NCBI GenBank assembly: GCA_027579435.1
Contig: JANBPK010001193.1
Location: forward strand, 1 to 64,000
DNA from: Candolleomyces eurysporus
Taxonomy: Eukaryota; Basidiomycota; Agaricomycetes; Agaricales; Psathyrellaceae
Length of the DNA stretch: 64,000 nucleotides
Reading direction: 5' to 3'
Position numbers and translations under genes: made by a program. Shown in pieces: positions 18,369 through 60,600 of this stretch. The notes beneath the pieces are model-generated. The model was not told where the DNA came from. It saw nothing but the letters and a program-made list of their open reading frames with translations, and did not search any database. The first letter of the stretch is position 1. The number at the start of each line of letters is the position of its first letter.

Positions 18369-19773
18369 ATGGTTTCCAAACCTTTCGCTCTTCTCACAGC
18401 CTTGCTTTTTACCCTCGGGTCCCTCTCCACCTCGTTCGCGTTTCCTAACCTCCAGGCTCCCAACGGCAGCTTGTTGAAACGTCAGGAAGTAGAGGACTCG
18501 ACTGCTTCTCAAACAGGAGGACGTCCTGGACAAGGAGTCGATCCACCTCCACCACCTGGTCCTATCAGTTTTACGGGGACAAAGTTGGTCAACGATCGTG
18601 ATCACCCTTGGAGGCCGTTGAGAAGGGGAGATATTCGCGGTCCTTGCCCAGGATTGAATACTCTGGCTTCCCATGGTGTAAGTTCTACCAATCATCCTTG
18701 TACATTTCCAACAGTGACTGACAACGCTTGTTCAGTATCTTCCTCGTGATGGCGTCGCCACTCCTACCCAAATCATCAACGCCGTTCAAGAAGGTATCTC
18801 GATGAAACGATGCATGTGCTGTATGATTTCTGACTCTCTTGCTCCGTACTAGGGTTTAACTTTGACCATGACGCCGCCGTCTCCGCGACATACCTCGGAC
18901 ACCTTTTGAACGGAAATCTGGTCACCGATCTTCTTAGTATCGGCGGCAAGACTCAGAAGACTGGACCTCCTCCCCCACCTCCCGCCCATGCTGGTGGACT
19001 CAACGTGCACGGAACTTTCGAAGGTATGTACTATGCTGTGCCTGACAGTCGATAGAGTCGATATCTCTTGCTACAGGTGACGCTGGTCTGACTCGTGCGG
19101 ATGAATTCTTCGGGGATAACCATAGCTTTAACCAAACTTTGTTCGATAAGGTTCGTTCTTTCATTTTCTTACTATCAGCCAAGGATTTACAAGGTACTGA
19201 CGACTTGGTATTATTCTTCAGTTTGTCGACTTCAGCAACCGTTACGGCGGAGGTTTCTACAATCTCACCGTTGCAGGCGAGCTCCGCTACTCGCGTATTC
19301 AAGACTCCATCGCTACCAATCCCCAGTTCTCATTCAAGAACGTTCGTTTCCTCACTGCGTACGGTGAGACCGTCTTCCCCATCAACTTATTCGTCGACGG
19401 ACGCCAAACCGAGCGTAAGCTCTCGATGGACCATGCAGCAGCCTTCTTCAGGGATATGAAGTTCCCACCTGACTTCCACAGAGCTGCTCAGCCCTCGAGT
19501 GCCGAAGGCGTCGAAAAAGTTCTCGAGGCCCACCCTTGGCTTCCTGGTAATAATGCGGATGGTCAGCTCAACAACTACGTCGTTGATCCCAATTCGGCAG
19601 ATTTCCTCGATCCGTGCAGCTTGCATAGGTTTGTGATTGGTAGTTTGCAGGAGCTGTATCCGAGGCCGACTGGTATCTTGAGAAGGAACTTGATCAAGAA
19701 CATCAATTATTGGTACACGGCTGCCTTTGCGCCTTCGGGATGCCCTGAATTACTCCCTTACGGCCAGTTGTAG
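18369..19773 (+). CDS. unspecific peroxygenase (UPO1)
   Basis: Secreted heme-thiolate peroxygenase: uses H2O2 to insert oxygen into C-H and aromatic substrates. Exons 18369-18677, 18736-18793, 18853-19023, 19077-19150 and 19222-19773 give 387 residues in frame. The signal peptide is MVSKPFALLTALLFTLGSLS plus TSFAF. The pro-segment ends at LLKR, a Kex2-type dibasic site before QEVED. A Pro-rich linker precedes RGPCPGLNTLASHG, whose Cys is the axial heme ligand. FEG|DAGLTRADEFFGDNH supplies the EGD heme/Mg site, split by an intron. NVRFLTAYGETVFP holds the Arg and Glu of the peroxide-cleaving pair at the R-x6-E spacing of long UPOs. NLTVAG is an N-glycosylation site. The total length after processing fits long UPOs. 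It is the first of three adjacent paralogues with identical intron phases (0, 1, 1, 0). Confidence 0.92.
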
Positions 19774-26880: not shown

Positions 26881-28289
26881 ATGGTTTCCAAACCTTTCGC
26901 TCTTCTCACCGCCTTGCTTTTTACCCTCGGGTCCCTCTCGACCTCTTTCGCGTTTCCTAACCTCCAGGCTCCCAATAGGAACTTGTTGAGACGCCAGGAA
27001 GCCGAGGGCTCAACTGCTTCTCAAGCAGGAGGAGGACGTCCCATCCAACCAGTCGATGCACCTCCACCACCTGGTCCTCTCAGTTTTACGGGAACCAAGT
27101 TGGTCAACGATCGTGATCACCCTTGGAGACCATTGAGAAGCGGTGACCAGCGCGGCCCGTGCCCAGGGCTGAATACTCTTGCGTCCCATGGTGTATGTTC
27201 GATCCACTATGTTCATACTTCGAAGAGTGACTGACCATGCTTGCTCAGTATCTTCCCCGTGACGGCGTTGCCACTCCTACCCAACTCATTAATGCCATTC
27301 AAGAAGGTATGTATCTCGATGAAACGACCTAAATGTGGTTTGCTTTCTGACTCTCTTGCTCCATGCTAGGGTTCAACTTCGACCATACTGCCGCTGTCTC
27401 CGCGACATACCTCGGACACATCTTGAACGGAAATCTGGTCACCGATCTGCTTAGCATCGGCGGCAAGACTCCAAAGACTGGTCCTCCTCCTCCAGCTCCT
27501 GCTCACGCTGGTGGACTCAACGTGCACGGAACTTTCGAAGGTATGTACTATGCTATGTTAGGACGTCGACGAGATCAATAATCCTTGTAACAGGCGACGC
27601 TGGTTTGACTCGTGCAGATGACTTCTTCGGGGATAACCACAGTTTCAACCAAACTTTGTTTGACAAGGTTCGTTTTTTCATTCTTTCTCACTATTAATTA
27701 AGCTACAACCCGCTGACGACTTGGTATTACACTTCAGCTTGTCGACTTCAGCAACCGCTACGGTGGAGGCTTTTACAATCTCACCGTTGCAGGCGAGCTC
27801 CGCTACTCGCGTATTCAAGACTCTATCGCTACCAACCCTCAGTTCTCATTCAAGAACGTTCGCTTCCTCACTGCGTACGGTGAAACCGTCTTCCCCATCA
27901 ACTTGTTCGTCGACGGCCGCCAAACCGAGCGTAAGCTCTCGATGGACCATGCGGCAGCCTTCTTCAGGGATATGAGGTTCCCACCCGATTTCCACAGGGC
28001 TGCTAAACCTTCGAGCGCCGAAGGCGTCGCAGAAGTCATCACAGCCCACCCTTGGCTTCCTGGTGGTAACGCGGATGGTCAGATCAACAACTACGTCGTT
28101 GATCCCACCTCGGCGGATTTCACCGATCCATGCAGCTTGCACAGGTTTGTGCTCGGCAGTGTGCAGGAGTTGTACCCGAACCCGACTGGTATATTGAGGA
28201 GGAACTTGATCAAGAACATCAATTATTGGTACACGGCCGCCTTTGCGCCTGCGGGATGCCCTGAAATATTGCCTTATGGCCAGTTGTAG
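26881..28289 (+). CDS. unspecific peroxygenase (UPO2)
   Basis: Exons 26881-27192, 27249-27306, 27370-27540, 27594-27667 and 27738-28289 give 388 residues, with intron positions as in UPO1. Signal peptide as in UPO1. The dibasic pro-site is LLRR before QEAEG. The heme-ligand motif is RGPCPGLNTLASHG, then YLPRDGVATPTQLINAIQE, FEG|DAGLTRADDFFGDNH and NVRFLTAYGETVFP, so all catalytic signatures are intact. A Leu replaces Phe at the first residue of the last exon (LVDFSNRYG). It lies about 7 kb downstream of UPO1 after one copy each of modules A and B. Closest to UPO3 by eye. Confidence 0.92.
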
Positions 28290-32310: not shown

Positions 32311-33709
32311 ATGGTTTCCAAACCTTTCGCTCTTCTCACCGCCTTGCTTTTTACCCTCGGGTCCCTCTCGACCTCTTTCGCGTTTCCTAACCTCCAGGCT
32401 CCCAACGGGAACTTGTTGAGGCGCCAGGAAGCCGACTCAACTGCGTCTCAAGCAGGAGGAGGACGTCCCATACAACCAGTGGATGCACCTCCACCACCTG
32501 GTCCTCTCAGTTTTACGGGAACCAAGTTGGTCAACGATCGTGATCACCCTTGGAGACCATTGAGAAGCGGTGATCAGCGCGGCCCGTGCCCAGGATTGAA
32601 TACTCTTGCGTCCCATGGTGTAGGTTCAATCCACTATGTTCATATACTTCCAAAAGTGACTGACCACGCTTGCGCAGTATCTTCCGCGTGACGGGGTTGC
32701 CACTCCTACTCAACTCATCAATGCCATTCAAGAAGGTACGTATCTCTATGAAAAGACGCGAACGTGGTTTGATTTTCTAACTCTCTTTCTCCATGCTAGG
32801 GTTCAACTTCGACCATAACGCCGCCCTCTCCGCGACATACCTCGGACACATCTTGAACGGAAATCTGGTCACTGATCTGCTTAGTATCGGTGGGAAGACT
32901 CCAAAGACTGGACCTCCTCCTCCAGCTCCTGCCCATGCCGGTGGACTCAACGTGCACGGAACTTTCGAAGGTATGCACTATACTGTGTTCGGAAGTGGAT
33001 TGAGTCAATAACCCTTGTTTCAGGTGACGCTGGTATGACTCGTGCGGATGAATTCTTCGGCGATAACCACAGCTTCAACCAAACTTTGTTCGACAAGGTT
33101 CGTCTCACTGTCAGCCAAGCATTTACAACGTGCTGAAAAATTCGCATTACGCTTCAGTTTGTTGACTTCAGCAACCGTTTCGGCGGAGGCTTCTACAATC
33201 TTACCGTCGCAGGCGAGCTCCGCTTCTCGCGTATCCAAGACTCCATCGCTACCAATCCCCAGTTCTCATTCAAAAACGTTCGCTATCTCACCGCGTACGG
33301 TGAGACCGTCTTCCCCATCAACTTGTTCGTCGACGGACGCCAGACTGAGCGTAAGCTCTCGATGGACCATGCGGCATCCTTCTTCAGGGATATGAGGTTC
33401 CCACCCGACTTCCACAGGGCTGCTCAACCTTCGAGCGGTGCAGGCGTCGAACAAGTTATCGCGGCCTACCCTTGGCTTCCTGGTGCTAACGCGGATGGGA
33501 AGGTCAACAACTACGTCGTCGATCCCACCTCGGCCAATTTCACCGATCCTTGCAGTTTGTATAGGTTTGTGCTCGGTAGTGTGCAGGAGTTGTATCCCAG
33601 TCCGACTGGCATCTTGAGGAGGAACCTGGTCAAGAACCTCCATTATTGGTACACGGGTGCCTTTGCGCCTGCGGGATGCCCTGAACAATTCCCTTATGGC
33701 CAGTCTTAG
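32311..33709 (+). CDS. unspecific peroxygenase (UPO3)
   Basis: Exons 32311-32619, 32678-32735, 32800-32970, 33024-33097 and 33158-33709 give 387 residues. Signal peptide, LLRR pro-site, RGPCPGLNTLASHG, FEG|DAGMTRADEFFGDNH and NVRYLTAYGETVFP are all present, so the enzyme should be active. Differences from UPO1 and UPO2 cluster in the last exon (for example RFGGGFYNLTVAGELRFSR, and HPWLPG changed to YPWLPG), a region that in UPOs helps shape the substrate channel. Ends EQFPYGQS. The last of the first UPO array. Confidence 0.92.
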
Positions 33710-34125: not shown

Positions 34126-34439
34126 CGATTTGGGAGTGGTTGCTAGTAACGTGAAATCAAGGCACTATGATGCAGTACTCGAAGAGTAAAGGTCTCCATC
34201 GTTTGAAGTCAGGCTGGAGACCTCGGTACGGTACGAGAGAGTTATGGTCGATGTACTTTTGGACGTACGTCTTCTAACACCTCCCGACTCATATGTCGAG
34301 AATGGGTGTTGAGATTGATAGTATCGAAGTTTGTGCTGTATCTTCCTTTGAACTTCAAGTCGGGCTCTCTATGCGCCTGTCGCAGTCGAGTGATTTATTG
34401 CATCAAGTCTAGCCACCAGTATGTAGCACGCGAGTTCGT

Positions 34440-34943
34440 CATCACATACGCACTACTGAAGCCCAGGACAGGCAAAGAACAGGGAGTCGTTTGGCCATGG
34501 CGAGTTTTGTGCCTGAACGAGAGTACTTCCTGCGAATTCAAATTCACTCTCATTGGAGTACAGTTTTGCGATACAAAGACGTATTCTAGAGGAAGGAGAC
34601 GTCTGTTGCGTAAAAACGGCCCAACACGCCATCGCAGTAGCCCTACAGATAGTTGGTGTCATCAACAAAATGAGGATAGTAGACGAGAGGAGAGGGTACA
34701 GACGCACTAGATAGACACCCTTGGTACTCGGAACTCGTGATAACACGATAATTTCGTCGTCCTGGTATTAGCGTATACAGCCCTCAAGCAAAGCGAGCGT
34801 ACAAGGAGAAATGAGAAACACACCTTGAAAAGCATAAGGTCACCCCTCTCTTCCGCTATGCGATTACATATCGCCACACACTTTCCTATCCCACCCTCCG
34901 TCGCAAACCTTCTCCATCCCCCCAGGTCAGCTGGACGCATCAT
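34440..34943 (-). pseudogene. decayed SH3-gene copy
   Basis: From 34943: MMRPADLGGWRRFATEGG, then IGKCVAICNRIAEERGDLML, parallel to the SH3 gene at 10838. After the intron the SH3 second half is recognisable only by switching frame (CRATAMACWAVF where the intact copy reads GYCEGVIGLF), and the Ser-rich tail is lost. Most likely a pseudogene; its first exon is well preserved. Confidence 0.55.
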
Positions 34944-35774: not shown

Positions 35775-36771
35775 TCATAAGTCAACTTTGAAACCGGCAG
35801 TACTATATTTCGAGCATGATGAGCCATCAGCAGATAAACTGGGAGGACAGTGCGTACGCAACGGGCTGAGGCTTCTCGCCATGACGACCTTGAACACCTG
35901 CGCCGCTATGTGCTAATCATGAGCCGGCTTCGCATGACCTGCAAGGAAAATGCTTACGCAAACCAGCTGGCGCGGCCCTCACCACCTTTCAAACCGACAT
36001 TGCTATAGATCGTTCGTGAGCCGTTGGCATCTGTAGATATCCTTTGAAAACGGTGCTTACGCCTCGAAGACAGGTTTCTCCCCAGGGCGACCCAGAGCGC
36101 CGACGTTCCTAGACATCCATAGTGAGGCATTTTTGAACGTCGAATTCATAGTAGTGCCTACACATATAAGTCCTTGTTCTTGTCCTTTCCAAAGTTGTGG
36201 TTAGCTTGAGCCACGACATTGCTGAACATGGGATGAGCCATGAGCGGATGAATAAGGAGAACGGTGCGTACACATAGGCATCAGGTTGCTTCCCGACACG
36301 AGCTTCAGCATTGAAACCGCTATATATCAGAAGTGAGCCATTCAGCAGCTACGGGCAAGGATAGCGCCTACACATCGAAGCGATTCTTCCCCGCGGAGTG
36401 CTGGACTTGGGCGGCGATATTGCTGTATGGATAATTAGTTGGATGATAAATCATTCAAAAGAATAGCGCCTACCCAAAGGCGTCAGCTTTCCCTCCAGGA
36501 AGCTTGTGAAGGCCGGCAGCACTATATTGTCGACGGTAAGGCCCGTGTAGGTGAATCTGAGTATACTGCCTACCCAGACCACTTCGTGTCCCCCACGGTG
36601 TGCTGAGCTTGAGCTCCTAATCGTTGAGCATTACTATATAAAGAAGATCAACTATCCGGAGATTGCCTCTCAGAGCAGTGCCTACTTGAAATAGTCGATT
36701 TCCCCAGCAACAAGAAGGGCAAAGAGGAGCCCATAGCTAGCGATGACCAGAATCAGGGCTGAGGACCGCAT
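35775..36771 (-). CDS. secreted repeat protein encoded by phase-2 micro-exons
   Basis: Ten exons on the minus strand: 36771-36686, 36633-36574, 36521-36474, 36422-36372, 36319-36272, 36221-36162, 36108-36061, 36002-35958, 35905-35858 and 35802-35775 (522 bases, 173 residues, in frame). Exon 1 is a signal peptide (MRSSALILVIASYGLLFALL, VAGEIDYF). Each of exons 2-9 is 45-60 bases, starts and ends in phase 2, and encodes one module: NAQRLGAQAQHTVGDTKWS; AAGLHKLPGGKADAF; NIAAQVQHSAGKNRFD; GFNAEARVGKQPDAY; NVVAQANHNFGKDKNKDLY; NVGALGRPGEKPVFE; NVGLKGGEGRASWF; GAGVQGRHGEKPQPV. Exon 10 ends TAGFKVDL. The nine introns are 50-58 bases. All start GTANGC, and most end in a TATAG-like acceptor. No family is recognised. 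The modules share a small-residue start and a central Gly next to a basic or acidic residue. The model is manual, but the uniform phases leave little room for chance. Confidence 0.75.
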
Positions 36772-38390
36772 CGGAAACGAGATAGGTGATAGTTTAAGGT
36801 GGAGTGGCACTGATGGGTGGTTTATGAGGACAGGCGTGAAGGTGCTTGGGGAATAATATATATATGCTTTACTGCGGTCACAAGGAACTGTTTGTTTCAA
36901 TTTGTGGAAACAATATACCAAATAGCTGCACGAGACGGTGTGACCCTCCGATTCGCCATCGTTCTGGAACCGACTCGCAACTTGAGCCGCGTGTACCTTG
37001 CAACGAAGGATGGCTTCCCGTCTAGAGCTGCATCGATGCTTGAACGAGTATCGCCAGGGATGATTGGCGCCCATTACAAGTAGTATCCTCCCACTGGAGC
37101 CGCGCATTGGACGATTACAACACAACGAGGCAAACTCATGGTGACTGCGTCAATACATATTCGTCAGGATATCGCCTGTCGGAGTCGCGAGAAGAATGTA
37201 GCTTATCATTGGCGCCCATTTCAAGGCAGCATTCCCTGACTGGAGCTTCCCACTGAACGATCGAAGCACTGCAATGAGGCAAATTTATGATCACTGCGTC
37301 AAAACGATATTGTTCAGATCGCGGATACGGGAATGACTTCGTGAAGCATGAAATGATGATGAAATACAGTGGATGATGTTCTAGACTTGCATACAGCATG
37401 AAACTGCGTCCGCAACGTTACCTCACGGTGCTCATGATAGTAAAAATACCAAATCTCGGGCTGCGTGCCAATTTAATTTAAATTTGGTTCTGTCGAATTT
37501 ACCCTCAAGGCGATAGAGAAGCCGTCGAGGTCGAAGAGGTCCTCCGAACCCGTGAGGTCACACACCAAGTGAACGCACTCCCTGGGAAGCTAAGCCAAAT
37601 GAATTTCTTTTTCTTTCGGCAGTGGGCACTGGAGAGCAGGCTTCAGATCGCTGGTCTGGCCTATGGGTCTAGATTACACCTTGTGTAGCACGTACCAATG
37701 GAGGCATAAGAGTAGCAGCAGTTGAGGCAGCCAGCGAGACAAAATGACTGATTGCGACTTCGAGTGTGGAATCTCCTAGCCACCTGGGTTACCCTTTCTA
37801 CCTCAATTCAAGGTCGAATCTGAATGAGCCGCTCAACAAATGTTCGTCTTCGCTGAAAGGAGGTCGTTTCAGGAGTAATCATCAGCGACGGGGAAGACTT
37901 AGGATTCATCGAGCTCCACTACCACCTGCGCCGTGCAGGGAACCTGACCGGATCCCATATCGCTGTCGAAGCTCGAAGTGAACGGATGGCTGTGGGCAGT
38001 TGGTGAGCTCAGATCGTGCCATGGTATGATGGCATTGGTACCAACCTATCTTTACACGAGTCGGCTAACATTGACCTTTGATTGCCTTACCACTGGCAAA
38101 ACTGCCCCGACTCATATCTATGACTTTTTTTTTCCCATTTTTTTGTCAGAAACTATTATTCCAACCTTCAAATGAGCTGTGTTTCTCATTATACTGACAA
38201 ATAGCGGCTGGGAAATGTGGCTGATATGTGGAGAGGTCTGGAGGTCGAGCCTGGACTGAAGCGATACTAATATTTGTTGTCTCTCTCTGCGCGCTATTAC
38301 CTCAGTCCTGGATGGACGGAGGTATCTAGTCAAGGTCGGTCGTACATCGGCGTTTCCGAGAACCATCTGGGAAGAGACACGTACATATCC
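36772..38390. other. intergenic
   Basis: Upstream region of the micro-exon gene, with no obvious TATA box. Several short open stretches exist (for example 37766-37981, plus) but none has recognisable content. 37081-37140 and 37195-37290 share a diverged direct repeat (GATTGGCGCCCATTACAAG against CATTGGCGCCCATTTCAAG). Confidence 0.4.
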
Positions 38391-39111: not shown

Positions 39112-40470
39112 ATGATCCCCCAGTTCTTCGTCCTTACTACCCTCCTCCTCACTTTCGGCACCCTTTCCGCTTCGTTAGCGTTCCCCAACAATGTAGATAG
39201 ATCTTCCGAACGACACTGGCGCTCGCACAAGCGGAGCACCTGGCGTAGTCAATCCTCCTCCGCCACCTGGTCCGCAGAATTCATGGGTACCAAGCTGGTC
39301 AACGACCGTGCTCATCCATGGAGGCCGCCGAGGGCTGAAGATGAGCGTGGACCGTGCCCAGGAATGAACACGCTTGCATCTCATGGTGTGAGTATTGTTC
39401 GTTATCTCAATGTCTTTATCACTAAACTTTCTTTCAGTATATCTCTCGCGATCGTGTCGCTACCCCAGCCCAGATCGTCACCTCCGTTCAGGAAGTTCAG
39501 TTTCTCTCAGTGGCCGGTTTAATGCACATAAACCCAGCTCGTTTTCCGTCTAGGATTTAACATGGAGAACAAGTTTGCGATCTTCGTGACCTACCTGACT
39601 CACCTGTTCAACGGGAATCTTGTCACCGACCTGCTCAGCATCGGAGGCAAGACAAGGAAGACTGGACCCTCTCCTCCTCCTCCTGCTCATGCCGCGGTTT
39701 CAACGTCCACGGAACCTTCGAGGGTAGGTCATCTCACGAGTTACTTCGTTCAAACAAAAGATATTGATGGCATGGTACAGGAGACGCTAGTATGACTCGA
39801 GCGGACGCGCTCTTCGGGGACAATCACAGCTTCAACCAAACCTTGTTTGATAAGGTACATGTACTCTACGTTAGCTCAACCATGGGTATCGAGTAATCCT
39901 TGGCTTGTATGCATCAGTTTGTCGACTTCAGCAACCGATACGGAGACGGGTAATACAACCTCACAGTTGCTGGAGAGCTGCGATTCCAACGTCTGCAAGA
40001 CTCTATCGCCACCAACCCCCAGTTCTCGTTCAAGAACGTTCGCTTCTTTGGGGCATACGGAGAGCCGGTCTTGCCCATCAACTTTTTCGTTGATGGGCGA
40101 GGGACAGACAAGAGATTAGACATGGCATCGGCTCTGTCATTCTTGAAGGATATGAGGTACCCTCCCGACTTCTTCAGGTCTCCTATGCTCGTGAGTACCC
40201 AAGGAATTGCGGAAATCTTCGCCATGCATCCATTCCAACCTGGGGGCAACGCTGATGGAAAGGTCAACAACTTCGTGGTCGATCCCACCTCCGCCGACTT
40301 CACGAAACCTTGTGTGCTATACGACGATATCTTGAATACGGTGAAGACATTGTATCCCAACCCAACAGGCGTTCTGAGGCAAAATCTAATCAAGAATCTG
40401 CGATATTTCTATACCGGTGTCCCTACAGTATTGGGTAGCGATTGCCGGGGCAATACGGCCGGGAATAGAT
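39112..40470 (+). pseudogene. UPO4, inactivated peroxygenase copy
   Basis: Clear homologue of UPO5 and UPO6, with signal peptide (MIPQFFVLTTLLLTFGTLSA) and GPCPGMNTLASHG, but carrying several independent lesions. The pro-segment after NNVD is out of frame with its paralogues and regains frame near the FMGTKLV stretch. The donor of intron 2 reads GAAGTTCAGT instead of GAAGGTCAGT (39496). One G is missing in the run near 39693 (GCCGCGG against GCCGGCGG), shifting the EGD exon. GGTTAT has become GGGTAATAC, creating an in-frame TAA at 39951-39953. The C-terminal EQFPYG is lost. The Arg/Glu region (VRFFGAYGE) is still readable. Not expected to make enzyme. Confidence 0.85.
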
Positions 40471-42245: not shown

Positions 42246-43626
42246 ATGATTCCCCAATTCTTTGTCCTTCTAACTTCCTTCCTGTTTATCTTCGGCACAC
42301 TTTCCACTTCGTTAGCGTTCCCCAACAATGTGGACCTTCCGAAGCGTCAAGAAGTTGACGACGCCAGTACTCACACAGGTGGAGCACCCGGCGCAGTCGA
42401 TCCTCCTCCGCCACCCGGTCCCCCGAATTTCACGGGGACCAAGCTGGTCAACGACCGTGCTCATCCATGGAGGCCGCTGAGAGATGGAGATGAGCGAGGA
42501 CCATGCCCAGGAATGAACACGCTTGCATCTCATGGTGTCAGTATTGCTCACTATCTTAGCGTCATTATCGCTGAACCTTCTTTAATTGTTCAGTATATCT
42601 CTCGCGATGGTGTCGCTACCCCAGCCCAGATAGTCACCTCTGTCCAGGAAGGTCAGTTTCTCTGGGTGGCCGGTTTAATGTACATAAACCCAGCTCGTTT
42701 TCCGTCTAGGATTTAACATGGAGAACAAGTTCGCGATCTTCGTGACCTACCTGGCTCACTTGTTCAACGGGAATCTTGTCACCGACCTGCTCAGCATCGG
42801 AGGCAAGACAAGGAAGACTGGACCCTCTCCTCCTCCTCCCGCTCATGCCGGCGGTTTCAACGTCCACGGAACCTTCGAGGGTGGGTCCTCTCGCAAGTTC
42901 CTTCGTTCGAGCAAAAAATATTGATGGCATGTTGCAGGAGACGCTGGTATGACTCGAGCAGACGCGTTCTTCGGCGACAATCACAGCTTCAACCAAACCT
43001 TGTTCGATAAGGTACGTGAACTCTCCATTAGCGCAACTATGGGTATCGATTAATCCTTCCATCAGTTTGTCGACTTCAGCAACCGATACGGAGATGGGTT
43101 TTACAACCTCACAGTCGCTGGAGAGCTGCGATTCCAACGTCTGCAAGACTCTATCGCCACCAACCCCCAGTTCTCCTTCAAGAACGTTCGCTTCTTCACG
43201 GCGTATGGAGAGTCGGCCTTCCCAATCAACTTCTTCGTCGATGGGCGAAGGACAGACAAGAAGTTGGACATGGCATCGGCTCTGTCTTTCTTCAAGGATA
43301 TGAGGTACCCTCCTGACTTCTTCAGGCCTCCTACCCCAATTAGTAACCAGGGAATTGCGGAAATCTTCGCCATGCATCCATTCCAGCCTGGAGGAAATGC
43401 TGATGGAAAGGTCAACAACTTCGTGGTCGATCCCACCTCCGCCGACTTCACGAAACCTTGTGTGCTATACGACGATATTTTGAATACGGTGAAGACATTG
43501 TATCCCAACCCAACAGGCGTGCTGAGGCGGAATCTAATCAAGAATCTGCGATATTTCTATACCAGTGTCCCTACGGTATTTGGTAGCGATTGCGGCGGGG
43601 AGCAGTTCCCATACGGCCAGGAATAG
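42246..43626 (+). CDS. unspecific peroxygenase (UPO5)
   Basis: Exons 42246-42536, 42594-42651, 42710-42880, 42938-43011 and 43066-43626 give 384 residues, with the same intron phases as UPO1-3. Signal peptide MIPQFFVLLTSFLFIFGTLS plus TSLAF. The dibasic pro-site is LPKR before QEVDD. RGPCPGMNTLASHG holds the heme-ligand Cys. The third exon reads NMENKFAIFVTYLAHLFNG, a hallmark of this second subfamily (UPO1-3 have NFDHDAAVSATYLGH). FEG|DAGMTRADAFFGDNH and NVRFFTAYGESAFP complete the EGD and R-x6-E signatures. Ends GEQFPYGQE. Predicted active and secreted. Confidence 0.92.
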
Positions 43627-45470: not shown

Positions 45471-46848
45471 ATGATCCCCCGATTCTTCGTCCTTCTTACT
45501 TCCTTCCTGTTCATTTTCGGCATACTTTCCACTTCGTTAGCGTTCCCCAACAATGTGGACCTTCCGAAGCGTCAAGATGTTGACGACTCTAGTGCTCAAA
45601 CAGGCGGAGCACCTGGCGTAGTCAATCCTCCTCCGCCACCTGGTCCCCCGAATTTCACGGGTACCAAGCTGGTCAACGACCGTGCTCATCCATGGAGGCC
45701 GCTGAGGGCTGGAGATGAGCGTGGACCGTGCCCAGGAATGAACACGCTTGCATCTCATGGTGTTAGTATTTTTCGCTATTTCAATGTCTTTATCACTCAA
45801 CTTTTTCAGTATATCTCTCGCGATGGTGTCGCTACCCCAGCTCAGATCGTTACCTCTGTTCAAGAAGGTCAGTTTGTTCCAGTGGCGGGTTTACTTTGTA
45901 TAAACCCAGCTCATTTTCCGTATAGGATTTAACATGGAGAACAAGTTCGCGATCTTCGTGACCTACCTGGCCCACTTGATGAACGGGAATCTTGTCACCG
46001 ATCTGCTCAGCATCGGAGGCAAGACAAGGAAGACTGGACCCTCCCCTCCTCCTCCCGCTCATGCGGGCGGTTTCAACGTCCACGGAACCTTCGAGGGTAG
46101 GTCAGCTCACAAACTACTCCGTTCAAACAAAAGATATTGAACGCATGTTGCAGGAGACGCTGGTATGACTCGAGCGGACGCATTCTTCGGGGACAATCAT
46201 AGCTTCAACCAAACCCTGTTTGATAAGGTACGTGTACTCTACGTTGGCTCAAGCATGGGTATCGAGTAATTCTTTGCTTGTATGCATCAGTTTGTCGACT
46301 TCAGCAACCGATACGGAGACGGTTATTACAACCTCACAGTTGCTGGAGAGCTGCGATTCCAACGTCTGCAAGACTCTATCGCCACCAACCCCCAGTTCTC
46401 CTTCAAGAACGTTCGCTTCTTCACGGCGTACGGAGAGTCGGCCTTCCCAATTAACTTCTTCGTCGATGGGCGAAGGACAGACAAGAAGTTGGACATGGCA
46501 TCGGCTCTGTCTTTCTTCAAGGATATGCGGTACCCTCCTGACTTCTTCAGGCCTCCTACCCCAATTAGTAACCAGGGAATTGCGGAAATCTTCGCCATGC
46601 ATCCATTCCAGCCTGGAGGGAACGCTCATGGAAAGGTCAACAACTTCGTGGTCGATCCCACCTCCGCCGACTTCACGAAACCTTGTGTGCTATACGACGA
46701 TATCTTGAACACGGTGAAGACATTGTATCCCAACCCAACAGGCGTGCTGAGGCGGAATCTAATCAAGAATCTGCGATATTTCTATACCAGTGTCCCAACG
46801 GTATTTGGTAGTGATTGCGGGGAGCAGTTCCCATACGGCCGGGGATAG
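45471..46848 (+). CDS. unspecific peroxygenase (UPO6)
   Basis: Exons 45471-45761, 45810-45867, 45926-46096, 46154-46227 and 46291-46848 give 383 residues. Nearly the same protein as UPO5: signal peptide, LPKR pro-site (before QDVDD), RGPCPGMNTLASHG, FEG|DAGMTRADAFFGDNH and NVRFFTAYGESAFP. Differences are few, for example HLMNGNL for HLFNGNL, GNAHGKVNN for GNADGKVNN, and FPYGRG at the end. Catalytic signatures are intact. Its upstream TATA box is weakened, so expression may differ from UPO5. Confidence 0.92.
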
Positions 46849-50239: not shown

Positions 50240-53200
50240 ATGTCCACGAACGCGCCATCCTACGATCCCTCGTCAGCAAAGGAGGACTCTGATCTCATCG
50301 ATTCACTCGTCCAACTATCGCAAAAGTCGCCGAAACTCGTGAAGGGCACTGAAGCTGCTGTACCAGGATGCGAAGAGATCACCGTACGAAGCTGGAAGAT
50401 GAACGAGTTCAAGTACTATGATATACCTTCTCCGTTCCCCACCCTAGCTCGAGGGCTGTTCACGACGGAAACTAGGACGGATGGTGAGGAAGAGGAGGAG
50501 GTAAAGCATCGGATTGTGGTAAGGGGGTATGACAAGTTTTTCAATATCGGTGAGGTTCCATGGACGACGGTGCGTTATTACCTCCTCTTATTTTGTTCTT
50601 CGCATTGAACTGGTCCCTAAACTCTCGTCTCTTTATAGTGGGAAGCCTTGAAAGAACATACCGCCGCGCCATATGTCCTCTCCCTCAAGTCAAACGGCTG
50701 CATCATTTTCATTGCCGCGATTACACCTACTAAGCTCATTGTTACGTCGAAGCACTCAGTTGGCACTGGGGACGAGACCGTCAGCCACGCTCTGATGGGG
50801 AGGAAGTGGTTGACCATGTACTTGGAGCAGAGGGAGCGGACAGAGGCCGACATGGCGGCGGTGTTATGGAAGAATCGCTGGACGGCCGTAGCTGAAGTGG
50901 GTCTTTCATTTTCTATCGCCCTTCGTTCCTCCCTTCCTCTTCATTCGTGTTCGCGTTTCCCTTCACCCCATCGGCGACCTGTATCCTTCCGCTCATCCTT
51001 GCCATTTCAACCTTGTTCTGCGATCCTGACAAATCTACGTAGCTCTGCGATGACTCTTTCGAAGAACATGTTCTCCCCTACGCCCCTGAAAAAACTGGTC
51101 TTCATTTACATGGAATCAACGTCTCCACAAAGTCTTTCCAAACCCTCCCCACATCCGCCGTGGACGCCTTTGCAGACGAATGGGGCTTCATTAAAACCGC
51201 TACTCTTGTCCTCCCCACCATCGAAGAAGTCCAGTCATTCACCTCCGAGGCTGGGGAGACGGGGGCATGGAACGGAGAAGCGGTGGAAGGATTTGTCGTG
51301 CGCACGCACGTCACCGAACCGCCTACCGAGCAAAAGACTGGAGGGGCGGGCACCACACACCTCTCGACGAATCTATCGCCTTACAAACCCGGCTCCTCGT
51401 TCTTCTTCAAAGTCAAGTTCGACGAACCGTACATGATGTACCGGGATTGGCGCGAAGTCACTAGATCTCTGTTGAGTATCAAGGCGAAGGGCGGGACGAT
51501 GTCGGCTTCTGCACTGCCGAAGAAGAAGATGAAGAGAGCGGAGACGCAGGCTTACGTCCAATGGGTCATTGAAGACATTGAGAGGAACCCGGAGCTGTTC
51601 AGCGAGTATGCGAAGGGGAAGGGGATTATCGCGACGAGGGAGAGATATTTGAAGTACCTCGAAGAGAACGGTGGAGTGGGTGAGGCTGCAGCGGAGACGG
51701 TTGAAGAGGCTGTGGAGATGGGTGATACAAGGGAGTTTGGGAAGACGGTCATTGCGCCCGTTGCAATCCCTGGATGTGGTTAGTTTCTCAATATTAAATT
51801 GATCTGTGAACGTTGATGTTGGCGTCTTGTTCGCGTTTGGACAGGTAAAACGACCGTCTCTCTAGCCCTTGCTTATCTTTTTGGATGGGGACATACGCAG
51901 AGCGATAATATCCAAGTGAAGAAAGCTGCACCGATGTTCATCAAGAATGTTGTGAACCTTGTGCACGACTACGACGTCGTTATCGCGGACAAGTAAGTCG
52001 TTGATTGAGCCATTTACAGCCTCTCATCACTTCCTCTTTATCTTGTTCGTTAACATATTGACCCGCTATCTTCCCGAGTCTCTTCATCGTACTCTACTCC
52101 TCTTTCGATGTTCTGTACTAACGTTTACTCTGCCCTTGAAAAGGAACAATCACCTCAAACAACACCGCCAATCCCTCCGCTCCGCCCTCGCTGAATTCCC
52201 CCAATCCTCCCTACCCATCCGACTGATCGCGCTCAACTGGGACGTCCACTCTCATCCACCAGCTCTAGTCCATCGAATGTGCTCCGAGCGAATTCGGAAT
52301 CGCGGGGCGAGGCACCAAACGCTGATACCCGACCTTATAGGGGCGAAGAGCTACCACGAGGAGGTTATATGGAAGTTCTTGAACGAGGCTGAGGAGCTTA
52401 GCAGGGACGAGGTAGACTATATCGTCGAGATGGATGTTCTTGAGGATACGGTGTCAAGAGAGACGATGGAAGATGTGGAGGAGCCAGAGAGTGGGATGCT
52501 CAGACAAATCCGAAAAGCCGTCGAAGGCGTGTGCGCCATCCTAGAGATGGACGTCCCGAGTGACGAGAGACTCCGGGGGGCTGTCGAGCACGTTAGACGG
52601 TACGAAGACGAGTTGGGGCTGAGGTCCTCGTCGAAATCGACCAAGTATGCCACTGGCAGCAGCAACAGTGGTAGTGGGAAGAAGAACAAGAAGAGCGCCG
52701 TCAGGTACTTCGGGATCGTNCCCCNAAAGTTAGCGTGGTGGAACTCGTAGAGTCAACGTTGGAATCGATGGCAGAGTCTATGGAGTCCCAGAGGGATAGG
52801 GAGGTGCGGCAGAGTCTCGAAGCGATGTGGTCGGGACTCAAGTCAGCCTACCGACCCACTCCCAGGCCACACGTCACCCTCGTGCACCAAAACCAACTGA
52901 AAGACCTTCCTCCCGAGGGCCGTGGAACGCGTAATGCGAAGGCGCTCTGGGACGCGTGCACAGAGGTACACGAGCTAGAAAACTCACCTCAATTCGAAGG
53001 AAGGCTGGGATGGTTGGTATGGAACGAGCGGGTTATGGCTGTTACGTTCGATGACGTAGGACTTTCAACACCACCACTACCGGACGACGATCGAAATGAT
53101 GAACACGAACACGAACCTGCTTCTACAAAGGTTCTTTCGCTTATCAACGACGACAAGGCTTTGAAGAGCCGCCTACATGTTACGATTGGGACGCGAGATT

Positions 53201-53376
53201 GGAGCGTACCGCCTGTCGAGGCGAAGACACTTGTAGAGGAGTGGAGGAGGAGAGGGGAGAAGGAGGGCTTGGACGTGGAGGCTGAGAGGAAGATATGGGC
53301 GGTGCGGCTTGGAGGTGGGGGTGTTAAGGTGAGAGGGGTGGTGAAGGGGTTGATCTCACGAGGCAGTGAGCGTTAG
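50240..53376 (+). CDS. TRL1: tRNA ligase, fungal three-domain type
   Basis: Joins tRNA exon halves after intron removal, and in fungi also splices HAC1-type mRNA. Exons 50240-50569, 50639-50896, 51043-51778, 51845-51992 and 52144-53376, about 900 residues. Start in strong context (GCCACCATGTCC). Ligase domain: YVLSLKSNGCIIFIAA contains the nucleotidyl-Lys motif K-x-N-G. Kinase domain: VIAPVAIPGCG|KTTVSLAL is a P-loop split by intron 3, followed by VHDYDVVIADKNNHLKQHR. Phosphodiesterase domain: PHVTLVH and LHVTIGT are the two H-x-T motifs. Ns at 52720 and 52725 within a C run break the frame (YFGIV then VSVVELVES). Removing them restores one frame, so this is an assembly error and not a mutation. 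Fragments of this gene recur at 28500, 33910 and 56805. Confidence 0.9.
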
Positions 53377-53924: not shown

Positions 53925-55595
53925 ATGAACGACGTACGAGACTGGGAGGTCCACCCATTGATTGGGTTACCCTTTCACAGAAATGAATGCAAGGCATGCG
54001 AAGAGTATCGCAATCATGTAATCGCGATGGACAAAGAGAACGGCGACAGAGTAGCTGAGGACATGGCAAGGCTATGGGGAACACAGGGAGTTTATGATCG
54101 GAGGAAGGAGAACGAGAAGTTGCGAGAAGAGCGCAACGACGTGCGGGCAGAGATTGAGGAACTGAGGAGACAAGTAGAGACATTAAGGAAAGCAGTTAGA
54201 GAGATCGGTAGGTCGCTTCTGGAGTCTAGGGCATCGTCACCGGCATTAAGCATTTCCAAAAAGGGGATAAATCCGCATCGCCAGGCCCGACTGAAACCAA
54301 ATTCGCCGGCTCCCCATGCGACGGGATCATCACTCAGAGTCTTCCAGGTATTGTTTTGTGATTGGTTTTACCTAAAAAATGCCATTCAAACTCACTAACT
54401 AACTTCATCCCCTTTCCTCCAGTTCCCACTCGCCGCGTAGGAAAAGGTGACATCGTTGGCTTTGGCCTCAATGGTGTTACCATCCTCCGCACCAGCCTCA
54501 TGCCCCGTACCACCAAACTTGCAGTACCAGACTTTGGCTACATCGCAGGGGGCTGGCGAACTGACAAACATGTCCGTCTTGTTGGCGATACCACAGGTGA
54601 TGGTCTCAGCGACATCATAGGATTCACCCATGGTGTGTGCGTCTCTCGTAACAATGGAGACTCTTTCTCTNCCCCCCCTCCATGTCCTAGGAGACTTCGG
54701 TTTGATATCGGGCTGGAGTGTCGGTAAACACATCCGCTACGTCGTTGACTTACGCAAGAAGGGTTACGTCGATATCATCGGGTTCGGCGATGAGGGTGTC
54801 CTCGTCTCGCTCAATAACGGGGACGGGACCTATGCGCCCCCGCGTCTCGTCCTAAACGACTTTGGGTTCAACGCTGGAGGCTGGAGGCTGGATCGACACC
54901 TCCGGTTCTTGGCTGACGTTAATGGGGATGGGATCCCTGATATCGTCGCCTTCGGTGAGAAGCGTGTCTTCGTCGCTCTTGGAAACGGGGACGGTACGTT
55001 TGCTGCTCCTAGAACCGTCCTCGACAGGGACTTCACATACTCTGGTTTCGGATGGAGAGTCGATGTGCACCCACGTACGCTGGGAGACCTTACAGGAGAT
55101 GGGAGAGCCGATATCATCGGTTTCGCAAACGCTGGAGTGTACGTCGCGTTGAATAACGGTGACGGGACCTTTCAAAAGCACAAACTCGTTGTCAAGGACT
55201 TCGGCGCGGTTGCTGGAGGCTGGCGGGTCGAAAAGCATCCTCGATTTGTTGCTGACGTCAACGGCGACGGGCGGGGAGATATCGTAGGGTTTGGGGATGC
55301 AGGTGTTTACGTGGCGATTGGAAATGGAGATGGGACCTTCCAAGCCCCAAAACTCGTGATCAGTAACTTCGGATACAACGCTGGAGGGTGGCGAGTTGAC
55401 AAACATCCTCGGTTTGTTGTCGATTTGACAGGAGATGGCGCTGCCGATATTATTGGCTTTGGGCAGGATGCGGTGTGGGTGTCGTATAATGATGGAAAGG
55501 GCAACTTTGGATACGTTCAACAATTTACTGAGGAGTTTAGCTATAACCGTGGCTGGGGAACGAGCAACACTGTCCGGTGGATTGCCAATTTGTAG
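53925..55595 (+). CDS. coiled-coil / seven-bladed FG-GAP propeller lectin, copy 1
   Basis: Model: exons 53925-54207 and 54423-55595, 484 residues once the N at 54671 is removed. N-terminus: MNDVRDWEVHPLIGLPFHRN, a CKAC pair, then a coiled coil (ENEKLREERNDVRAEIEELR). The phase-1 donor GTAGGT at 54208 joins to VPTRRVGKGDIVGFG, the start of seven FG-GAP/VCBS blades, each with D-x-T/N-G-D-G-x-x-DI(I/V)GF (third blade DLRKKGYVDIIGF) and an N-N-G-D-G-T-F loop. This is the architecture of Psathyrella velutina lectin, a calcium-bearing propeller that binds GlcNAc and sialyl glycans. It has no signal peptide, so it is probably cytosolic, as many mushroom defence lectins are. An alternative shorter intron (54348-54422) would end the protein at FPLAA. 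The coiled-coil fusion is unusual. Confidence 0.8.
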
Positions 55596-56804
55596 CGAAA
55601 TCGATGTCTGGATTATTGTAGATCTAGGCAGTTAGTTGAGCCTAGGATTAGTATTAATGGACATTATATTAGGCCACAAGCCCACCTCCGTGCTGCCTCT
55701 CTCTCACACTCTCGGAGGTGAACGAATAAACAGCCAAAATTTTACTTTGATCAGTTACATAACTGTAGGGCATATAACTAAGAAGTACGCCCACCTGCCC
55801 ATACGAATTCTCAAAGGATCAGATGTAAAATCACCAAGTGGATTAGGATGATCATTCCGTCGCATTACCATTCTTTTGAGCTTACACAGAAAGAGAGGAC
55901 CTTACTGGAGTTCAGTACAGGTCGAGCATGGATGACGCTGTGGTGAGCGTAAGCTACCGTTCGAAGATTGGCCACTCAGAGCATGAGCTAATGCTAATGA
56001 CGGTCCTTCATCATTCAAATGATCACGACGCTGACAACACGCGACTGATCAGAATTCAGAAAATGTCAAACGAAACCAATTCAATATAAAACATGCACCA
56101 TCTTTGACCCTGATCAGCGGATGACCGTCGATTCTCCACAGTTCCACTTAGTCACTCTTGCATCTTCTCAAGCGGATAAGGGACCCGAGGAGGAGAATCT
56201 GCATGCGTTCGAGTGGAGGAAGACTTGGGTGGTTGGGGAGAGTGGTTGACGCCATCAAATCAAAGCAAAATGTCAACGTCTGGCTGAAGACATAGCGTAT
56301 CCCCGATGTCGCCCAACAGCTGTTCGTGTGCACGAGCACTCAGACGGAAATTGTACAGCGAGCACGTCCGTTAATCAAATTGTGTTTGAAACGTCCGAGA
56401 CGCCACGCAAGTGTGAATTGACTCGCTAGAAGGTACCGCCCGGGTTAAGAGTGAGATGGAAAAAATGAGGCGCAAACGAGACGCCTTTCCTGAGTTAAAC
56501 CATGCACATGCCATTTCGACACAAAAGCCGGAGCACGCTCTGTAACCCGCGGCCCTTCGTCCCTTGGTATGCCGGGCTCCGAGAGAACACTGATGTTTAG
56601 AGAACGAAGTGAGCAACGAAAAAAAAGCCAGGTCGTTGTCAGACGTTGCAAGATAATGTGGAATCTTACTCTAAATGCCAGCTTCAATGGTATTACATAG
56701 CTCATTGAGCCCGAAAATATCCTACCAGCCAAATATCGGTATCTCGGGCGCATAAGAGTGATGGAGAAATCCGTGCTAACGTGAAGGTATCGATCAACCT
56801 TCAA
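55596..56804. other. intergenic
   Basis: The first part (55596-55850) is closely repeated at 59304-59530 after lectin copy 2 (GATCTAGGCA, GAGCCTAGGA). The rest has no recognisable gene. Confidence 0.5.
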
Positions 56805-57633: not shown

Positions 57634-59303
57634 ATGAACGACATACGACGTTGGGAGGTCCACCCATTGATCAGGTTGCCCTTTCACAGAAATGAGTGCA
57701 AGGCATGCGAGGAGTATCGCAATCATGTAAACGCTATGGACAAAGAGAATGGGAACAGGGTAGCTGAGGACATGGAAAGGCTATGGGGAACACAGGGAGT
57801 TGGGGATCTGAGGAAGGAGAACGAGAAGTTGCGAGAGGAGTGCAACAGCGTGCGTGCAGAGGTTGAGGAACTGAGGAAACAAGTTGAAACATTAAGGAAA
57901 GTAGTAACGGAGAGAGGTAGGTCGCCTTTGGATTCTAGGGCATTGTCGCCGGAATTAAGTGCTTTCAAAAAGGAGATAGATGTGCATTTCCAGGCCCAAC
58001 GGAACCCAAATTCGCCATCCCCCCAAGCGACAGAATCATTAGTCAAAGTCTTCCAGGTACTCTTTTTTAATTCATTTCACCCAAAAAATGACATTCAAAC
58101 CGACCAACTAACTTCATTTCCTTTCCCTTAGTCCCCACTCGCCGCGTAGGAAAAGGTGACATCGTTGGCTTTGGCCTCAACGGTGTCACCATCCTCCGCA
58201 CCGGCCTCATGCCCCATACCGCTAAACTTGCAGTACCGGACTTTGGATACATTGCCGGAGGCTGGCGAATTGACCAACATGTCCGTCTTGTCGGCGATAC
58301 CACAGGCGATGGTCTCGGAGACATCATAGGATTCGGTTATTCTGGTGTCATCGTCTCTCGTAACAATGGAGACTCCTTCTCTCCCATTTGCCTCGCGCTA
58401 GAAGACTTCGGTTTGACAAAGGGGTGGAGTATTGACAAACACGTCCGCTATGTTGCTGACTTGCGCAGGAAAGGGTACGTCGATATCATTGGGTTCGGCG
58501 ATGCGGGTGTCCTCGTCTCGCTCAATAATGGGGACGGGACCTACGCGCCCTCGCGTCTCGTCCTCAACGACTTTGGGTTCAACGCTGGAGGGTGGAGGGT
58601 AGATCGACACCTCCGGTTTTTGGCTGACGTTAATGGGGATGGGATCCCTGATATCGTCGCCATCGGCGAGAAGCATGTCTTCGTCGCTCTTGGAAACGGG
58701 GATGGCACGTTCGCTGCTCCTAGAGCCGTCATGGACAGGAGCTTCACGCGCTCTGGTTGGGGATGGGAGATCAATAGGCACCCACGTACGCTGGGGGACC
58801 TTACGGGGGATGGGAGCGTCGATATCATTGGCTTTGCAAACGCTGGAGTGTACGTCGCGTTGAATAACGGTGATGGGACCTTCAAGGAGGGCCCACTCGC
58901 TGTCAAAGACTTCGGTGCAGACGCTGGCTGGCAGGTCGACAAGCATCCTCGGTTTGTCGCTGACGTCAACGGCGACGGGCGGGGAGATATCGTGGGGTTT
59001 GGGGATGCAGGTGTTCACGTAGCAATTGGAAATGGAGATGGGACCTTCCAAGCCCCAAAACTCGTGATCAGTGACTTCGGATACAACGCTGGAGGGTGGC
59101 GAGTTGACAAACATCCTCGGTTTGTTGTCGATTTGACAGGAGATGGCGCTGCCGATATAATTGGCTTTGGGCAGGATGCGGTGTGGGTGTCGTATAATGA
59201 TGGAAAGGGCAACTTTGGACCCATTCAGAAATTCACTGAGGAGTTTAGCTTTAACCGTGGCTGGGGAACAAGCAACACCGTCCGGTGGATTGCCAATTTG
59301 TAG
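57634..59303 (+). CDS. coiled-coil / seven-bladed FG-GAP propeller lectin, copy 2
   Basis: Exons 57634-57916 and 58132-59303 join in phase 1 to 484 residues without any N, confirming the model made for copy 1. N-terminus MNDIRRWEVHPLIRLPFHRN, CKAC, then a Glu/Lys/Arg coiled coil (ENEKLREECNSVRAEVEELR). The propeller starts VPTRRVGKGDIVGFG and has seven blades, with DTTGDGLGDIIGF, DLRRKGYVDIIGF, DVNGDGIPDIVAI, DLTGDGSVDIIGF, DVNGDGRGDIVGF and DLTGDGAADIIGF. It closes with NRGWGTSNTVRWIANL. Blade calcium-site Asp residues are kept except in the third. It differs from copy 1 mostly in blades 2 and 5 and around DFGADAGWQVDKH. Likely a cytosolic glycan-binding protein; specificity cannot be read from sequence. 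Confidence 0.85.
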
Positions 59304-60600
59304 CGAAATTGATGTCTGGAATTCAGTGTGGATCTAGGCATTTAGTCGAGCCTAGGAGATTAGTATTAATAGACATAATCTTGGGCCACAAGCTCACCTC
59401 CGTGCTGCCTTTCCCACCTTTATACTCTCAGAGGCGAACGGATGGACGGCCAAAATTTTAATTTGATCAGTTACATGATGACTGTAGGGCATTAAACTAA
59501 GAAGTAAGCTCACCTGCCCATACAAGCTCCCGCAGGATCGTTGCGTTCTAGGAAAAGAGGATTGGGTCAACGCTTTTTTGTAGTGTGTTAGAAGGATATT
59601 ATGACATTGCATCGACTATGACCTGGGTCCTGGATGTTTGAGGGTGACGTTCGATGGAGACTAGAACTAGCGGACCGATCAATGTTTGTTTCAAGCAGCC
59701 AGTTCAAACATGGCAATCTCATGGATCTGGGCGGTCTTTCCAATATGAGATATGAACTAGGTCGGACATGCTAGTCCAAGCAAAGTCGTAATCACCAGTT
59801 GGTGGAGCAGCGGCGAATAGTGTCGATGTGTGAGAGACGCCAGTGGAACCGCTAGGACATTTTCAAGGTGTCTGCGAGAAACCTGCCAACCTGACAATCT
59901 TTGCGAAGTCTCACCTGACACAAGTGCAGCAGCAGCGTCCTGACCACCTGAAATGCCACATCCTGTCAACTCTTTCGCATTAAGTTGAACCTGACAAAGT
60001 TAGAACGCTTGTGCTGACATGTTTACGCGCCGACATAGACCCTGTTCACTTCTGTCCCCAGAGGAAACAACCTGACAAAAATCTTTCAATGTTCGGGGTA
60101 AAATCCTGTCAAAAAACAGGCGAATTCAGCGTTTATTTTTTACCCAGTATATATGCCGTACGTTCGATCCCTGGAGGCGCAAGTGTTTTCAGACATCTTC
60201 AGGTTTGAAGCGAGGTCGTAAAGTCCAGGACCTTTCGTGTTGGCAGAGTCGCAAGCTACGTGGCAGAAATATTACCCTTGTCATTTCCATACAATGCTCA
60301 ATGACAATCTCTTATCGAGGTGCAGAAGAAAGGTATGAACAACGAAAATATATCAAATACGGTTTTTGTCCAAGAGAGACCTAACCTCTAGAGTCTAGAG
60401 ATTACCGTAGGAGAATTGCTCCTCGCAGTCAGCGTCTGCAATACCACTGTAAGGGAAACACAAGTTCTTGACCAAATTTCTCCTCAAAATTCCAGTGGAG
60501 TAGGGGTACAGTCCGCGAATGGTCTAGCTGAAAGGCGAAGGTCTGAATTCCCCTTAGGGGTACACAGTATGACGGCTGGCAACTGGTAGGTCCCTTCGCG
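59304..60600. other. intergenic
   Basis: Begins with DNA repeated from the lectin copy 1 downstream region, then unique sequence including the TGACA cluster. No gene is seen. Confidence 0.45.
59892..60111. promoter_or_regulatory. cluster of seven TGACA/TGTCA motifs
   Basis: TGACA at 59892, 59916, 59992, 60015 and 60073; TGTCA at 59964 and 60107. All but the one at 60015 are preceded by C, as CCTGACA, ACCTGACA or CCTGTCA. A TATA-like TATATAT follows near 60148. TGACA is the core site of TALE-type homeodomains, but no evidence here identifies a binding protein. Confidence 0.3.

Follow-up and report, generated by a model that had tools for sequence, protein, structure and literature searches.

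Does a stretch of about a kilobase in the genome of a mushroom, Candolleomyces eurysporus, hold a gene in which every protein repeat has a small exon of its own, and if so, how would such an architecture have arisen and what would it serve? A sequence-only reading of the 64,000-nucleotide window (the whole stretch of DNA analysed) had proposed a secreted protein built from one-repeat-per-micro-exon modules, reminiscent of the micro-exon genes (MEGs) of schistosomes and the bicycle genes of aphids. The explanation that best fits our follow-up, to which we assign a probability of roughly 0.7, is a functional gene for a small secreted repeat protein that would have arisen by tandem duplication of one exon-intron unit, would be spliced constitutively and would have a binding or surface role outside the cell.

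Anatomy of the gene and chance expectation

On the minus strand, the gene extends from an ATG at 36771 to a TGA ending at 35775, and its 997 bases are divided into ten exons (Table 1). Splicing yields an open frame of 522 bases, that is 173 codons and a stop, encoding a protein of 173 amino acids. The eight internal exons measure 45-60 bases, are each a multiple of three, stand in phase 2 at both edges and encode one module apiece. These modules comprise 15-20 residues, one more at either end of the range than the 14-19 first read. All nine introns (50-58 bases) are likewise in phase 2, open with GTANGC (GTAGGC in five, GTACGC in two, GTAAGC in two) and end in YAG throughout. Re-reading the gene reproduced the coordinates, the strand, the exon and intron counts, the phase, the intron sizes and the donor pattern that had been proposed.

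Table 1. Positions of the exons and introns of the micro-exon gene, of its second copy and of other features of the window
Feature	Positions	Strand	Length (nt)	Remarks
Exon 1	36686..36771	(-)	86	start codon and hydrophobic leader, peak residues 5-23; identical in H1R20_g11908
Intron 1	36634..36685	(-)	52	GTAGGC...TAG; without recognisable CTNAY
Exon 2	36574..36633	(-)	60	phase 2/2, module 1; present in H1R20_g11908
Intron 2	36522..36573	(-)	52	GTAGGC, branch CTTAC
Exon 3	36474..36521	(-)	48	phase 2/2, module 2; present in H1R20_g11908
Intron 3	36423..36473	(-)	51	GTAGGC (second copy: GTACGC), branch CTAAT
Exon 4	36372..36422	(-)	51	phase 2/2, module 3; TAG formed at its donor
Intron 4	36320..36371	(-)	52	GTAGGC, branch GGCTCAC
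Exon 5	36272..36319	(-)	48	phase 2/2, module 4
Intron 5	36222..36271	(-)	50	GTACGC, branch GGCTCAT
Exon 6	36162..36221	(-)	60	phase 2/2, module 5
Intron 6	36109..36161	(-)	53	GTAGGC, branch CTCAC
Exon 7	36061..36108	(-)	48	phase 2/2, module 6
Intron 7	36003..36060	(-)	58	GTAAGC, branch GGCTCAC
Exon 8	35958..36002	(-)	45	phase 2/2, module 7
Intron 8	35906..35957	(-)	52	GTAAGC, branch GGCTCAT
Exon 9	35858..35905	(-)	48	phase 2/2, module 8
Intron 9	35803..35857	(-)	55	GTACGC, branch GGCTCAT
Exon 10	35775..35802	(-)	28	terminal half-module and stop
Second copy of the gene	G000:C942:2782-3778			
Peroxidase_2 (unspecific-peroxygenase-like) tandem array	18417-19767, 26929-28283, 32359-33703, 39166-40445, 42246-43620, 45471-46845	(+)		six members
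Peroxidase_2, seventh gene or piece	62740-63955	(-)		
Peroxidase_2, further fragment	60404-60523	(-)		
PVL-type FG-GAP lectin genes	54431-55613, 58140-59309	(+)		two genes, ~86% identical
Fungal tRNA ligase	50648-53376	(+)		ligase, kinase and CPD domains
UbiA prenyltransferase piece	5941-6453	(-)		
G-alpha piece	925-1407	(-)		just below Pfam cut-off

A branch site of the form CTNAY is recognisable in eight of the nine introns, with its A lying 12-17 bases before the intron end. The GGCTCA element, earlier noticed in several introns and taken as a sign that exon and intron were duplicated together, is indeed found in five of the nine (introns 4, 5, 7, 8 and 9), but it is the branch site. Part of the similarity among the introns is therefore functional rather than a relic of duplication, and taken alone the element is weak evidence for the latter.

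Such regularity is very unlikely to have come about by chance. GTANGC donors spaced 85-125 bases apart form one run of nine in the gene, compared with a longest comparable run of two on the plus strand of the window and of three in 200 first-order Markov windows. A scanner for same-phase micro-exons (donor GTRNG, branch CTNAY, acceptor YAG, exons of 30-75 bases, introns of 45-75 bases and an open frame) returned a chain of eight introns in the gene, and likewise in a second copy of it found in the genome. With the gene masked, the chain was one on the minus strand and one on the plus strand, and Markov windows (20) gave at most two. Ten other 10-kb stretches of the genome, scanned on both strands, gave a chain of one in 17 of 20 cases and of two in the other 3, and of at most three under loose settings; this 100-kb background is not a random sample, since six of the ten lie on the contig of the window and two (on C397 and C1028) were chosen around pattern hits. 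At twelve further pattern-hit loci the chain reached at most two under strict and three under loose settings. Finally, a profile of the exon-intron unit, built from these same units and run over 124 kb (the window, the second copy and 50 kb more), placed 18 of its 18 matches at E<=10 in the array or its second copy.

Divergence between the two copies and the deposited protein

A 10-kb alignment to the window (93.9%, 61 gap openings) takes in the second copy and its surroundings. This stretch is probably the other haplotype of a dikaryon, duplication being the alternative. Over the 997 bases of the gene, the copies are separated by 23 substitutions and zero indels, with the frame and all splice sites kept. 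Changes fall on 7 of 522 exonic and on 16 of 475 intronic positions (Fisher p=0.036). Exons show about a quarter of the mean divergence of the flanks, which differ at 157 of 3204 sites within ~1.6 kb on each side and carry 16 indels (p=5e-5), and the introns do not differ from the flanks (p=0.16). Five of the seven exonic changes are at codon position 3 (p=0.045); three are synonymous and four are replacements (L34F, Y97F, D115E and Y117H). In both copies all nine donors read GTANGC and all nine acceptors YAG, and the one altered donor, that of intron 3, passes from GTAGGC to GTACGC and so remains within the pattern. Both copies carry eight modules, equality in this single comparison.

The low divergence of the gene has to be read against a patchy background. 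There are only 12 changes and no indel in the 600 bases from 36800 to 37399, and 7 changes from 34200 to 34799. At the mean flank rate five indels would be expected in the gene and none is observed (probability of none 0.007); since parts of the flank have diverged just as little as the gene itself, both the low divergence and the missing indels may be partly regional. The contrast between exons and introns inside the gene is free of this effect, but it is modest. When the gene is halved, the contrast is absent from exons 1-4 (p=0.48), and exons 5-10 carry 4 changes in 277 positions compared with 11 in 268 for introns 5-9 (p=0.07). The conservation upstream, at 36800-37399, might reflect a promoter or, again, a regional effect. 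Beyond this segment, the next 600 bases hold 51 substitutions. A run of TATATATATATT lies some 90 bases ahead of the start codon, and further upstream there is an imperfect direct duplication of ~100 bases (37060-37156 and 37205-37305, spaced 145-149 bases, with pieces 90% and 82% alike).

Patchy divergence, with flanks in places as conserved as the gene, would also be compatible with a remnant, decaying or non-coding, that only happens to read as a gene. Such a reading could draw as well on the apparent isolation of the protein, for which no relatives were found and no Pfam or NCBIfam match was returned at E<=10, with HMMER filters that drop most weak matches. A remnant would hardly be expected to give the chain statistics described above or to keep its frame open and its splice sites intact in each of the two copies; we consider it very improbable. 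Taken together, the gene structure is well supported as non-random and reasonably supported as coding.

A deposited protein offers a further view of the same exons. Among six candidates retrieved with an 82-residue query covering exons 1-4, one match was obtained, H1R20_g11908 of Candolleomyces eurysporus, identical over the 82 residues. This record, placed at 36372-36771, implies the same three junctions between exons 1 and 4. Retention of intron 4 yields exactly 82 residues, as the unspliced donor reads GT/G TAG (the slash marking the exon edge). The record could thus be taken at face value, with the product ending at the intron 4 donor and exons 5-10 unused or belonging to a separate product. 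We hold this to be quite improbable, as exons 5-10 maintain their frame, their module pattern and, in both copies, their splice sites, and show the lower count of changes given above for that half of the gene. Instead, H1R20_g11908 appears to be a truncated automatic model that halted at the first donor-made TAG left unspliced. The presence of such a stop after exon 4 in a public protein suggests why genes of this kind escape notice.

Origin of the units and combinability of the exons

The sequence-only reading held that exon and intron had been duplicated together. The exons resemble one another at z ~12 and the intron interiors, which include the branch site, at z ~11, each over 300 letter shuffles. 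The stretch from +7 to +16 of the introns appears to be better evidence for duplication than GGCTCA, as its similarity amounts to 5.19 of 10 compared with 2.5 and 2.9 under two null models (0 of 5000 in each). In addition, a C at position +6 is shared by all nine donors, compared with 1 of 12 in the neighbouring peroxidase introns, a comparison of non-independent donors taken as two introns from each of six related genes. What did not follow is a significant correspondence between the similarity matrices of exons and introns, with Mantel rho 0.24 (p=0.10) for the following intron and rho 0.12 (p=0.27) for the preceding one.

The weak correlation between exon and following-intron distances, together with the short and uniform introns, would suit a history in which introns were gained separately by an older intronless repeat gene, either introner-like or through duplicated splice-site gain. 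Under this scenario, nine introns would have to arrive in one phase and at one position of the repeat, and yet share sequence in the interior and from +7 to +16. Moreover, a strict intron pattern matched 11 times genome-wide, and eight of these matches fall within the gene or the second copy; the three others compare with two for a reversed control and give no sign that such introns have spread. Separate gain is therefore difficult to sustain and was given a low weight, about that of the 82-residue product. Joint duplication of whole exon-intron units is the likelier origin, to judge from the similarities among the units, and would have proceeded by repeated tandem duplication of a ~100-base unit, one micro-exon and one short intron, behind the leader exon.

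The resulting layout would permit modules to be lost or combined freely, as had been claimed of the frame. In silico, all 256 subsets of the internal exons remain open, reach the same stop and give 256 distinct proteins of 37-173 amino acids. Exons 2 to 9 end in GG, GG, GT, GT, GT, GC, GC and GC, respectively. Because these ends open fourfold codon boxes, the residue at the junction (Gly, Val or Ala) is independent of the exon that follows. Only the junction after exon 1, which ends in AA, depends on its partner. When introns are retained instead, seven of the nine stop translation one codon past the boundary. These stops arise because GTAAG and GTAGG donors sit in phase 2, and do not by themselves indicate design.

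One way to read this combinability is regulated module skipping, by which a single locus would yield numerous secreted isoforms, a behaviour reported of schistosome MEGs. The 256 in-frame subsets, the very short exons and introns and the donor-made stops that end the protein at a module boundary in seven of nine retained introns are what such a system would display. The same features are expected without any regulation, as in-frame skipping is automatic after duplication of equal-phase units and the stops follow from the donor sequence and phase; on what the sequence offers, regulated skipping seems rather unlikely. A more far-reaching version, an independently evolved fungal counterpart of the schistosome and aphid micro-exon genes with combinatorial secreted isoforms from one locus, builds on the joining of equal-phase micro-exons with fourfold-box ends in any subset, with frame and junction unchanged. 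We rate it as unlikely, a shade below skipping as such. If it were true, the stop-spelling donors would truncate the protein exactly at module boundaries.

For the constitutively spliced gene that we prefer, the modular layout would most likely matter over evolutionary time, with every exon spliced in. Phase-2 edges and fourfold-box ends would allow units to be gained or lost in the genome with no change of frame or junction. A gene of this kind in an agaric would make it testable whether splicing diversity or plain unit duplication drives such layouts, and in agarics both knock-out and long-read cDNA are practical.

Predicted product, known systems and genomic neighbourhood

Ahead of the micro-exons, the first exon encodes a leader, as proposed, with a hydrophobic peak at residues 5-23 (Kyte-Doolittle mean 2.49), judged by hydropathy alone. 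The protein is thus probably secreted. If cut after residue 23, a position chosen by hand, the mature part would be a basic, cysteine-free repeat protein of 150 residues with a pI of 9.4 and a GRAVY of -0.54. Neither KR/RR nor an N-glycosylation site is present in the whole 173 residues.

The modules follow a common trend, N-V-x-A, then G with K or E, then an aromatic or hydrophobic end in V or A, in which a single G is invariant. The periodicity of hydrophobicity along the modules is that of a strand (p=0.002 at 180 degrees) and not of a helix (p=0.60), suggesting strand-turn-strand steps with the intron in mid-strand. Each micro-exon would then probably contribute one turn, around the G-K/E pair, between two half-strands, which would place the introns inside predicted beta strands and make every unit one further strand-turn step. 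For the 82-residue deposit (P0121), AlphaFold2 run on the single sequence gave helices instead of strands. With a pLDDT of 53-68 beyond the leader, this helical model counts against the strand reading but has little weight. PDB sequences offer no match to the protein at E<=10, and one chance-level match (E 0.96) to the module profile. We hypothesize that the product most likely acts outside the cell as a binding or surface protein, with the number of units setting its size.

The search for relatives leaves the gene an orphan so far. The full-length protein drew 118 candidates, selected as sharing exact 5-residue words and measuring 0.55 to 1.75 times the query length, none of which matched at E<=10. 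Because of these length bounds, the 82-residue record was beyond the reach of this search. C. aberdarensis is in the database, and where it and other relatives lack an annotated homolog, the reason may be gene models that overlook micro-exons. When the genome was searched for paralogs by protein, DNA and GTAGGC array, with low sensitivity for distant ones, the gene and its second copy were the sole finds beyond pattern matches close to or under the level of the controls. Of 19 genome-wide matches to the array pattern, nine belong to the gene or its copy, compared with 32 matches for the reversed pattern. At one place besides, C397:5881-6203, two array hits overlap, but it lacks a micro-exon chain and was rejected. 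Micro-exon genes with other donor classes may be present elsewhere in the genome.

The layout parallels drawn earlier with bicycle genes and MEGs are borne out by the available portions of the corresponding papers. Bicycle genes are described there as having many small internal exons, almost all in phase 2, ~17 exons on average, and as forming large families of putative secreted effectors with CYC motifs and very divergent sequences (PMC9168663). Small phase-2 internal exons are what the present gene shares with this partial description, in eight of eight cases (PMC9168663). It differs in having ten exons, a single locus found, no cysteine or CYC motif in the mature part, a module that equals an exon, introns of 50-58 bases and a fungal host. 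MEGs, in the excerpt at hand, combine a signal peptide with short exons of 6-81 bp, mostly multiples of three and most of them 15 bases, with introns of 0.1-5 kb, in 35 genes for secreted proteins (PMC10526429). The hydrophobic leader and the internal exons of 45-60 bases, all multiples of three, resemble this arrangement as far as it is described there (PMC10526429). The short introns, the longer exons, the single locus found and the exons that are related repeats set the gene apart.

The statement that no fungal example is known requires qualification. Among the matches listed, in a literature scope that leaves most subscription journals outside, no fungal gene that devotes a micro-exon to each repeat was found. 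Microexons and secreted repeats have each been described in fungi. SP7-like effectors, according to a partial description, carry a signal peptide and 6-11 hydrophilic imperfect repeats, each closed by a conserved island; a single conserved intron precedes the first of these repeats, several members have a nuclear localisation domain, and the group is restricted to Glomeromycotina (PMC11333574). To the extent of that description, our gene resembles them in being fungal and in its leader, its eight imperfect hydrophilic repeats and its intron before the first repeat (PMC11333574). Here, unlike in the SP7 layout as partly described, each repeat comes with an exon and an intron of its own, and the host is an agaric of the Psathyrellaceae, not a member of Glomeromycotina. 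For the NACHT-ANK (nank) genes of Tuber melanosporum, the text available speaks of variation through alternatively spliced, codon-sized microexons (PMC4986451). They thus share with our gene a fungal host and multiple microexons, but as portrayed there they encode NACHT-ANK proteins with codon-sized microexons and not leader-plus-repeat modules (PMC4986451). KEX2-processed repeat proteins (KEP) are, like this one, repeat proteins of agarics, with KEX2 sites flanking each peptide core in the portion of the source seen (PMC9769878); KEX2 processing was rejected for our protein, which has no such dibasic site.

We place the gene in none of the MEG, bicycle, SP7 and KEP families, as it departs from each in at least one defining feature. 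Relatedness to MEG or SP7 proteins was likewise not detected, the 5-residue-word search giving no match at E<=10 beyond the gene's own record. What we describe is a micro-exon gene in layout, apparently independent, in a mushroom. If exon, protein repeat and duplicated genomic unit coincide in an agaric gene, micro-exon genes for secreted proteins would have one more independent origin.

A role in host interaction, evoked by the earlier comparison with schistosome and aphid genes, is not supported and is the weakest part of that interpretation. An effector acting like MEG or bicycle proteins would be in keeping with the leader exon, the micro-exon repeats and the lack of known homologs. Orphan status is usual among effectors. 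The single locus found, with no family expansion seen in genome searches of low sensitivity for distant paralogs, and the mature protein devoid of cysteine, compared with the CYC motifs of bicycle proteins, speak against such a role. So does the lifestyle of the genus, given in the part of the source available as typically terrestrial, lignicolous and rarely fimicolous (PMC11277608). We therefore regard an effector as improbable, and return to an extracellular binding or surface protein as the preferred product.

The gene sits between the third and fourth copies of the Peroxidase_2 array, on the opposite strand to them (Table 1). No Rfam family was detected in the window at the gathering threshold. 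Of the PVL-type lectins, one from the window is 100% identical over the query to GenBank H1R20_g11913 of Candolleomyces eurysporus, and many similar Candolleomyces proteins are present in the protein database.
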